Positions 35,396 through 54,672 of a stretch of 64,000 bases of DNA are shown here, piece by piece. The notes under the pieces are model-generated. The model saw nothing but the letters and a program-made list of their open reading frames with translations. It had not been told where the DNA came from and ran no database searches. The position numbers were made by a program, and so were the translations under genes. The stretch is taken from positions 124,001 to 188,000 of the forward strand of contig JAAFJP010000001.1 in assembly GCA_013298125.1 (NCBI GenBank), read 5' to 3'. Every line of letters starts with the position of its first letter. Position 1 is the first letter of the stretch. Origin of the DNA: Cytophagales bacterium. Its GTDB lineage: Bacteria > Bacteroidota > Bacteroidia > Cytophagales > Spirosomataceae.

Positions 35396-35635
35396 ATGGA
35401 AGCCGTAAGTTTTGAGCAATTTGACGCCAATATTCTTCAAGAAATAGTTACTATGAAAATGCCCTTTGGGAAGTACAAAGGGCATATAATCTGTAATTTG
35501 CCAGAATATTATCTCGTTTGGTTTTATAATCAAGGCTTCCCCAAAGGTCGTCTGGGAATACTTTTGGAGACTTTGTACGAGATAAAATTGAATGGCTTGG
35601 AGTTTTTGTTGAAGCCTTTGAAGGGTGGAAATTAA
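35396..35635 (+). CDS. DUF3820 family protein
   Basis: MPFGKYKGHIICNLPEYYLVWFYNQGFPKGRLG is the characteristic motif. Confidence 0.85.
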   Translation: MEAVSFEQFDANILQEIVTMKMPFGKYKGHIICNLPEYYLVWFYNQGFPKGRLGILLETLYEIKLNGLEFLLKPLKGGN

Positions 35636-36739
35636 CCCAATAACCTCTTCAACGACTCTGGGTCAGGCAAAATATTTTTCAAATGTTCAGGCAGTTGTTC
35701 GCTCAATTGATAAACCGCCACACCCATTGGATTTGAGATTTTTTGAAAGGCATATTCAACTGTTTTATCGTTTTTCTCCGAACACAAAATAATCCCAATT
35801 GCAGGATTTTCATCTTCCAATTTTTCAGTATCATTCAATACGTTCAGATAAAAGTTAAGTTGTCCAGCATCTTGTGGTCTAAATTTACCTTTTTTGAGTT
35901 CAAAGGCAATCAAACATTTCAGGATTCTGTTGTAAAATAGCAAATCAACAAAGAATTCGTCCGCTTCGGCGTTCCGATTCATCTACGAGTAAGCGATGTT
36001 GATTTCCGATAAATGAAAAACCCTTCCCCATCTTCATAATAAACTCCTTGATGTTGTTCACAATTCCCTTCTCAACCACTCTTTCATCACTCGTTTCTAC
36101 ATTAATATAATCCAATAAATATTCATCTTTAAACGCCAAAGTAGAATTCAATTGAAGCGGAAGAGGCAAGGTATTTTCAAAATTACTCTGAATCGTATTG
36201 CCTTGTTTCTGAAATAAATTCGTCTTGATTTGCCATTCCAGCATTTCATGAGTCCAATGATTTTCGACAGACTTTTTAAGATAAAATAGCCTTTCTTTCC
36301 ACACTTTACATTTGTTCAATAGTAAAGTATGATGTGAAAAGCCCACTCCGAAAAATAGTTCGGGCGTAATACCTTCTAATTTGGCAGATGCCGTCTGCCA
36401 AATTGTATTTTCCTGATTATCAGCACTTTGCAATTGGGCAGATGCCGTCTGCCAAATTGCGATAGAAGAATATTCATCAGCAAACTGCCTCATATTTCGG
36501 AGATTTCTATATGAAAACCCTTTTAGTCCAGGCAATTCTTTTTGCAAATCAATTGCTATTTGTTCAATGATTTGTGTACCCCATTTTTCGGAAGCAACCT
36601 TTTCAGATAATCGTTTTCCGATGATGAAATAGAGTAACAATTGCTCACGATTAACCAAGCGAGCCGCCAAATAACGACTATGAACAATTTGATTTTTTAC
36701 TTCGATAATAAAGTGGTTGTAGGTAGTTTCTGTGGTCAT
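35632..36739 (-). pseudogene. DUF1016/YhcG-type PDDEXK nuclease, interrupted by a frameshift near 35945-35982
   Basis: N-terminal ORF 35945-36739 (MTTETTYNHFIIEVKNQ...GKGFSFIGNQHRLLVDE) and C-terminal ORF 35632-35982 (DEFFVDLLFYNRILKCLIAFELKKGKFRPQDAGQLNFYLNVL) are two halves of one protein in different frames. Confidence 0.85.
36378..36458. repeat. Two copies of a 27-nt palindrome (AATTTGGCAGATGCCGTCTGCCAAATT) in frame inside the DUF1016 gene
   Basis: Copies at 36378-36404 and 36432-36458, one difference, 54 nt apart; each encodes IWQTASA(K/Q)L. Confidence 0.92.
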
Positions 36740-48608: not shown

Positions 48609-49258
48609 ATGGAATTAAAGAATACAAACAACGATTATAAGCATTGGTTGGAACAAGTGAAAAGCCGTATTCGTACCGCAAGAATCAAGGCTTCATTAGC
48701 TGCCAATGCTGAACTGATTTCTTTTTATTGGGATTTGGGGAAAATGATGTCGGAAGTGTCAGACACAGCCGAGTGGGGCAATAACTGGTTAGGAAGGTTG
48801 TCAAATAATCTTCGTAAAGATTTCCCTGATATGGAAGGATTTTCAAAGACTAACTTGTATAATGTCAGGCGGTTATATAATTTTTACATCAAAGATGAAT
48901 TTTTCCACCAGCTTGGTGGAAAAATTCCGTGGAGGCATCATGTTGAAATTTTTACCAAAGCAAAAAGTACAGAAGAAGCTCATTTCTACATCACTCAAAC
49001 CATAGAAAACGGTTGGAGTCGTGATATTTTGGGTTTTCAAATCAAAGCTAATCTTTTTGCAAGACAAGGAAAAGCTATCCATAATTTCAAAAATACACTT
49101 CCAGAGCCAACCTCAGACTTGGCAGGGCAATTATTGAAAGACCCTTACCAGTTTGATTTTTTGTCAATGACTGAGCCTTATAAAGAAAGGGAATTAGAAA
49201 ATGCTCTGGTAGATAATGTTACGAAGTTTTTGATGGAATTGGGAACAGGTTTTTTAGT
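48609..49258 (+). pseudogene. DUF1016/YhcG-type nuclease N-terminal domain, truncated before the PDDEXK domain
   Basis: MELKNTNNDYKHWLEQVKSRIRTARIKASLAANAELISFYWDLGKMM...LENALVDNVTKFLMELGTGFL; homology ends here and the ORF continues antisense into the permease gene. Confidence 0.82.
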
Positions 49259-54482: not shown

Positions 54483-54672
54483 TTTTGGGGGTTAGGGGTT
54501 AGATTACTTGATATTTTCCTAATCCCTAACTAAACTGATTGGTTAAGTTATACACAAGGGAAATTTTATAAACTAACCCTCCCAAGGGTTCAAAACCCTT
54601 GGGAGGGTTTTGGATGAGTACAACTTAATTAACCAGTTCACTTAACCCCTAAATCCCAACCCATAACCCCTA
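54483..54672. repeat. Nested palindromic element (core AACCCTCCCAAGGGTT-CAA-AACCCTTGGGAGGGTT)
   Basis: Core 54575-54590/54594-54609 perfect 16 bp; middle arms 54533-54553/54618-54638 with 4 mismatches; outer GGTTAGGGGTTA/TAACCCCTAA arms. Confidence 0.85.

Follow-up and report, generated by a model that had tools for sequence, protein, structure and literature searches.

Why should a gene for a predicted nuclease carry, in frame and inside its own coding sequence, a long perfect palindrome? The question is raised by a DUF1016/YhcG gene in the window, the whole 64,000-nucleotide stretch of Cytophagales DNA that was analysed. The family (PF17761 plus PF06250; COG4804) is listed as candidate defence PDC-S02 in PADLOC; the literature (Kosinski 2005, PMC1189080) predicts a nuclease whose function is unknown. 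The analyses below suggest that the palindrome is probably the cognate DNA-binding site of the protein that it helps to encode, and that it travels with the cassette that sets binding specificity. The features of the gene are the following.

48609..49256, plus strand: DUF1016/YhcG gene, 3'-truncated (Pfam; alignment to L012/L013)
48837..48890, plus strand: putative recognition helix GFSKTNLYNVRRLYNFYI (MI/APC and contingency tables; helix in the AF2 model)
48897..48927, plus strand: palindrome with 14-bp perfect arms, centre 48912, at codon position 1
48927..48959, plus strand: putative second DNA-reading helix PWRHHVEIFTK (covariation, AF2 model)
49014..49049, plus strand: putative third DNA-reading helix WSRDILGFQIKA (covariation, AF2 model)

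The gene starts at ATG 48609 and encodes a complete DUF1016_N domain (PF17761, 2.3e-37, Pfam). Of YhcG_C (PF06250) only the first ~46 residues are present (profile positions 2-47 of 157), after which the sequence is unrelated, and the alignment to L012 and L013 ends after ELGTGF. The complete PD-(D/E)XK YhcG_C domain, which L013 and others retain, is absent; the window copy is a member of the family, but most of its nuclease domain is missing. The palindrome AATTTTTCCACCA-GCT-TGGTGGAAAAATT (48898-48926, 29 nt, with the 3-nt loop GCT) is in frame and encodes EFFHQLGGKI, followed by PWRHHVEIF, as the first-pass annotation had described. That annotation had also given it a perfect stem of 13 bp; the pairing is indeed perfect, but the arms measure 14 bp (48897-48910 and 48914-48927), the outermost pair being G48897...C48927. 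AATT stands at 48898-48901 and 48923-48926, and the half-site, taken 2-8 bp from the centre, reads ACCACCT. Allowing up to 3 mismatches, shuffles of the window give a chance expectation of none and the 5.85-Mb genome holds this single copy, so a dispersed repeat was rejected.

The window contains a second gene of the same family, with two palindromes of its own.

35945..36739, minus strand: second DUF1016 gene (DUF1016_N and the start of YhcG_C)
36377..36405, minus strand: palindrome copy 2 (IWQTASAKL), TAATTTGGCAGATGCCGTCTGCCAAATTG, centre 36391
36431..36459, minus strand: palindrome copy 1 (IWQTASAQL), centre 36445

These two tandem palindromes have a longer spacer than the one in the 48609 gene, and the inner bases of copy 2, AGAC, are common to the E. 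coli yhcG sites. In both genes each palindrome lies within DUF1016_N, between the recognition helix (GFS..NL...) and the PWRHH or GFSHH helix, which bears out the earlier proposal that the two linkers are equivalent. The second gene has a frame break near 35945-35982, and its remaining nuclease domain lies in the ORF 35632-35982; both window genes are therefore broken, 48609-49256 by lacking the nuclease half and 35632-36739 by the frame break. The nearest relatives of the genome, Runella and a Cytophagales MAG, make a cytophagal origin probable. The genome has 11 DUF1016 genes, and all 11 paralogues have different half-sites, as would be expected if paralogues must not cross-react. Strong intergenic palindromes of another kind, of AACCCTTGGGAGG-like and CGCTGGTAGGGTT-like sequence, also recur in this genome (window 54575-54609; L300, L304, L305, L309, L312, L325); these are probably terminators. 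The scan for generic palindromes covered 864 kb.

The palindrome of the window gene appears to be one instance of a rule across bacteria, by which YhcG/DUF1016 genes carry an in-coding palindrome that changes together with the DNA-reading residues. Roughly two thirds to three quarters of the ~275 DUF1016 genes compared, which come from several phyla and include E. coli K-12 yhcG, have a palindrome at the same linker and in the same codon phase; most homologues thus share the feature, while its sequence differs. At least 11 of 13 positions are paired in the domain of 130 of 175 distinct genes, compared with 28 of 875 synonymous-codon permutations, and 126 of these 130 palindromes are centred on codon position 1. 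With a score of at least 9 of 10 outer pairs, the counts are 183 of 274 genes (several phyla) and 72 of 1096 synonymous permutations, and 166 of the 183 share the codon phase. Between roughly a quarter and a third of the genes have no strong palindrome. The typical site is 27 bp long; its core (2-9 bp from the centre) varies and its AATT (10-13 bp) is near-constant, so that the AATT noticed at the borders of both window palindromes is a real, family-wide feature. At most core positions all four base-pair types occur, and the core differs between genes. Genes with more than one site were represented by the site of highest symmetry; for K-12 this is perhaps not the cognate site. In L214, L162, L197 and L222 palindromes stand two or three in tandem, with a common inner core and divergent outer bases, perhaps as relics of earlier specificities.

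The protein was aligned on both sides of the palindrome, leaving out the palindrome-encoded residues, and MI with APC was calculated against the half-site bases in 218 genes (effective number 82). The strongest pairs of palindrome position and protein column were 7-71 (z 12.6), 3-114 (10.9), 3-86 (8.0), 4-89 (7.8) and 8-74 (6.0), followed by position 2 with column 115 and position 5 with column 75; column 71 is the bracketed residue in GFSE[R]NLRYM, column 114 that in NGWS[R]RVLE and column 86 that in SW[T]HY. Columns 71, 74, 75 and 78 lie on one face of a single helix. In the window gene these four are T (48849), Y (48858), N (48861) and R (48870) and track palindrome positions 5-8, while positions 2-4 are tracked by columns 86 (R, 48933) and 89 (V, 48942) of the second helix and by columns 114 (R, 49020), 115 (D, 49023) and 116 (I, 49026) of the third. 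Arginine at 71 goes with G at position 7 in 96 of 98 genes, and arginine at 115 with C at position 2, which is G on the opposite strand, in 111 of 111; arginine or lysine goes with C at position 3 when at column 114 (84/93) and with C at position 4 when at column 89 (71/79). The chemistry of these pairings is, as far as sequences can tell, that of DNA reading.

When bases were shuffled within clades, these associations almost never recurred (0 of 300 for nearly all pairs), and the top columns from Bacteroidota alone include the same six. In the other phyla, G at position 7 was found in 30 of 31 genes with Arg71 and in 1 of 38 without it, and C at position 2 in 23 of 23 genes with Arg115 and in 1 of 40 without it. 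When prediction was carried from Bacteroidota to the others, the one test whose key columns had been selected on separate data, accuracy at position 7 went up from 0.45 to 0.88 and at position 3 from 0.58 to 0.74; the gain was clear only at positions 7, 3 and 2, there was none at 5 and 6, and position 8 did worse than a majority guess. With pooled columns, themselves selected from these same data, the bases at positions 7 and 3 were predicted with an accuracy of 0.82-0.85 (majority 0.30 and 0.42) in genes that share less than 45% identity with the training set.

The AlphaFold2 model of the window domain has a mean pLDDT of 79, the domain itself being mostly above 85, and contains the recognition helix (79-92), a short helix encoded by the palindrome (97-104; EFFHQLGGKI), which thus stands between the putative DNA-reading helices, and the next helix (107-116). 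Nearly all its top PDB matches are Noc/ParB DNA-binding domains, the best with a TM of 0.69 by target length (6y93), although the Foldseek E values of 0.2-1 are not significant alone, and profile searches of Pfam and PDB sequences gave no match linking it to ParB/Noc. In ParB and Noc three helices, the recognition helix and two later ones, touch the palindrome; its outermost base is read by residue 173 and its sixth by residue 201 (Jalal 2020, PMC7383237). In ParB the outer bases of the half-site fall to the recognition helix and the inner ones to a later helix, and few residues switch specificity (PMC7383237). The covariation layout of DUF1016 appears to be the same as these contacts, an agreement that is independent of the covariation data. 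The likeness to ParB/parS and Noc/NBS would extend from the predicted fold to the assignment of outer bases to the recognition helix and inner bases to the later ones. The family differs from them in having a nuclease instead of a CTPase (Pfam finds only DUF1016_N and YhcG_C in the window gene), in its odd 27-bp site with AATT ends, and in the place of that site, inside its own gene and encoding part of the binding domain.

Natural alleles show protein and palindrome changing together. In DNA, the window gene is 88-93% identical to L012 before, and 83-90% after, a stretch of ~100 codons in which identity is only ~55-67% and the palindrome is different; against Runella L013 the palindrome is the same and the recognition helix is identical at 19 of 20 residues. 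The E. coli allele 2015C-3107 and K-12 share 93-98% identity as far as the recognition-helix codons and once more beyond the linker, but 60-68% in between. Its recognition helix has K71 replaced by R and R74 by W, and compared with the O157 allele its first palindrome has G,T in place of C,G at positions 7-8, whereas positions 2-6 (CAGAC) and the helices that would read them are unchanged. A change confined to positions 7-8 is what the code predicts for the R71/W74 swap. From the code, the predicted cognate sites are CGCCAGACNNNGTCTGGCG for the O157-type (K71/R74) allele and GTGCAGACNNNGTCTGCAC for the R71/W74 allele; one of the two cassettes occurs in 473 complete genomes and the other in 3795. 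What recombination moves is, on these alignments, apparently the whole specificity cassette with its palindrome. K-12 yhcG itself has three tandem sites in the gene and one 30 bp past the stop codon. The palindrome ~30 bp downstream is conserved in all three alleles examined (L283:3483; L338:1478; L339:1541) and is always of the R71/W74 type, irrespective of the allele. In several strains (L337, L340, L341, L342) yhcG is IS-interrupted or truncated.

Taken together, each YhcG/DUF1016 gene seems to contain a DNA address read by its own protein. The first-pass annotation had offered a self-recognised target as speculation, next to a recurrent insertion hotspot; covariation with putative DNA-reading residues outside the palindrome and the joint allele swap in E. 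coli lend strong support to the former. The two insert positions proved equivalent, and the inserts do not vary freely without palindromic DNA. We consider it very likely that the protein physically binds its own palindrome and dimerises on it. A YhcG/DUF1016 protein would then consist of a ParB/Noc-like helix-turn-helix DNA-binding domain and a PD-(D/E)XK nuclease, and a dimer would read the ~27-bp palindrome, the recognition helix taking the bases 5-8 from the centre, the two later helices the bases 2-4, and conserved parts the outer AATT. Specificity and site would move as one cassette when alleles recombine, because the site is in frame in the short-helix segment between the DNA-reading helices.

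What such binding does for the cell is a more tentative matter. The site lies at one third of the gene's length, which fits an intragenic operator, and repression of the gene's own transcription by binding there is a reasonable proposal that we hold at slightly less than even confidence; an operator of this kind would work wherever the mobile gene lands. Because catalytic motif and site are kept together (the PD-(D/E)XK motif in 222 of 274 genes, 209 of those with at least 10 of 14 pairs), a reason is needed why the nuclease spares its own gene, and perhaps it is held or licensed at its own site rather than cutting. More broadly, this may be a family of self-addressed nucleases in which the nuclease is governed by whether its gene is present, that gene either holding or silencing it or the nuclease being aimed at DNA with the same address, and in which many mutually blind versions coexist; we put this forward with some reserve.

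One alternative takes the self-site as a cleavage target: the nuclease would cut DNA with the same site, whether in a copy entering the cell, in a rival replicon or in the sister allele, leading to exclusion of related elements, gene conversion or drive, with the cassette swap as the escape of an allele. The retained catalytic motif and palindrome are in line with this, as are the PADLOC listing, the recombining cassettes and the distribution of the genes, which are multi-copy, patchy, found on plasmids and often broken. However, a resident gene with an intact site would also be cut unless cleavage is conditional, and we regard this reading as rather unlikely. Less likely again is a tether or antidote, in which binding to its own gene keeps the nuclease inactive until the gene is lost or the host DNA destroyed, whereupon the freed enzyme kills or arrests the cell, as in addiction or abortive infection. 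The coexistence of site and intact nuclease, the candidate defence annotation and the fact that the genes stand alone, without an obvious partner, suit this idea, but one to three sites per gene could sequester only a few dimers.

A further candidate is an RNA hairpin. Once transcribed, an inverted repeat of this length and perfection would fold, and such a structure might regulate translation or mRNA decay. Yet the mismatches show no excess of wobble pairs (at positions 2-11, 28 are G.T/T.G, 55 A.C/C.A and 108 others), spacers are of one nucleotide with a fixed odd centre, and the bases follow residues of DNA-contact type, so an RNA hairpin is very improbable; because the mismatches have no G.T bias, the symmetry is by all appearances that of double-stranded DNA. 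A mobile palindromic element or insertion hotspot, comparable to the protein-coding palindromes of Rickettsia, has in its favour that tandem copies occur and that a few free-standing ones exist. The hotspot suggested by the first-pass annotation, a mobile palindrome dropped into the gene, nevertheless finds no support: the window site is single-copy, place, length, centre and codon phase are fixed, the encoded helix is part of the domain, and cores differ between genes while covarying with contact residues. We rate this explanation, like the hairpin, as highly unlikely. A by-product of protein sequence constraint, or chance, can practically be dismissed: the peptide motif hydrophobic-x-Q-x-x-x-x-Q-hydrophobic is somewhat conserved, but such symmetry arises in 3-7% of synonymous permutations as against the 67-74% observed, which refutes a codon or peptide origin.

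Known systems resemble the self-encoded binding site in part. I-TevI is a nuclease that represses its own gene through a site in the 5' region of the reading frame (reviewed in PMC3943268); its site overlaps a late promoter and resembles the homing site, unlike DUF1016, and there is no family-wide self-encoded site that covaries. As far as the account citing Ogata goes (PMC4316617), the Rickettsia palindromic elements are in-frame palindromic DNA within proteins, ~100-150-nt repeats in many genes and sites, whereas the DUF1016 palindrome is one short site, at one place in one gene family, with a gene-specific sequence. The donor allele of a homing endonuclease is without an intact target, while the DUF1016 gene itself carries the presumed one. 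Type I restriction specificity subunits also change target specificity by swapping recognition cassettes, but their target is outside the cassette. We know of no precedent for a coding segment of a DNA-binding domain that doubles as the domain's own site and coevolves with it across phyla. The literature searched, with coverage short of most subscription journals, contained no report of a palindrome or binding site in YhcG/DUF1016, nor of the principle that a coding segment is its own binding site. If the principle is true, specificity and address change and disperse together in a single cassette. For a very widespread nuclease family, E. coli yhcG among its members, there is then a DNA-binding code that can be read, a target that can be predicted member by member and a function that can be tested, and hundreds of natural protein-site pairs become available for studies of DNA recognition.

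Similar sites also occur outside the domain. Their density in the 200 bp around DUF1016 genes (16 in 80 kb) is 13 times that further away (6 in 396 kb), and they often have a core unlike the internal one, for which reason simple autoregulation does not explain them. A uniform autoregulatory operator among these flanking sites was considered and found weakly supported, the core match being 3.19 as against 2.40 for random genes. At L316:14001-14065 (G000:C17) a free-standing intergenic pair of DUF1016-type palindromes (AATTTTGCAGACAATGTCTGCAAAATT, CAATTCGCCAGACAGCGTCTGGCGAATT) lies just past a gene end, with half-sites matching both E. coli yhcG specificities. In viral contigs, query P0001 found no relatives and the exact E. 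coli-type site was absent, and the GTGCAACA-type site had four exact matches, two of them in DUF1016 genes. Of the exact DUF1016-type sites outside such genes (L290:2411-2433 and L291:5042-5064), one is in frame in an 833-aa phage protein and one lies in a phage tRNA cluster.
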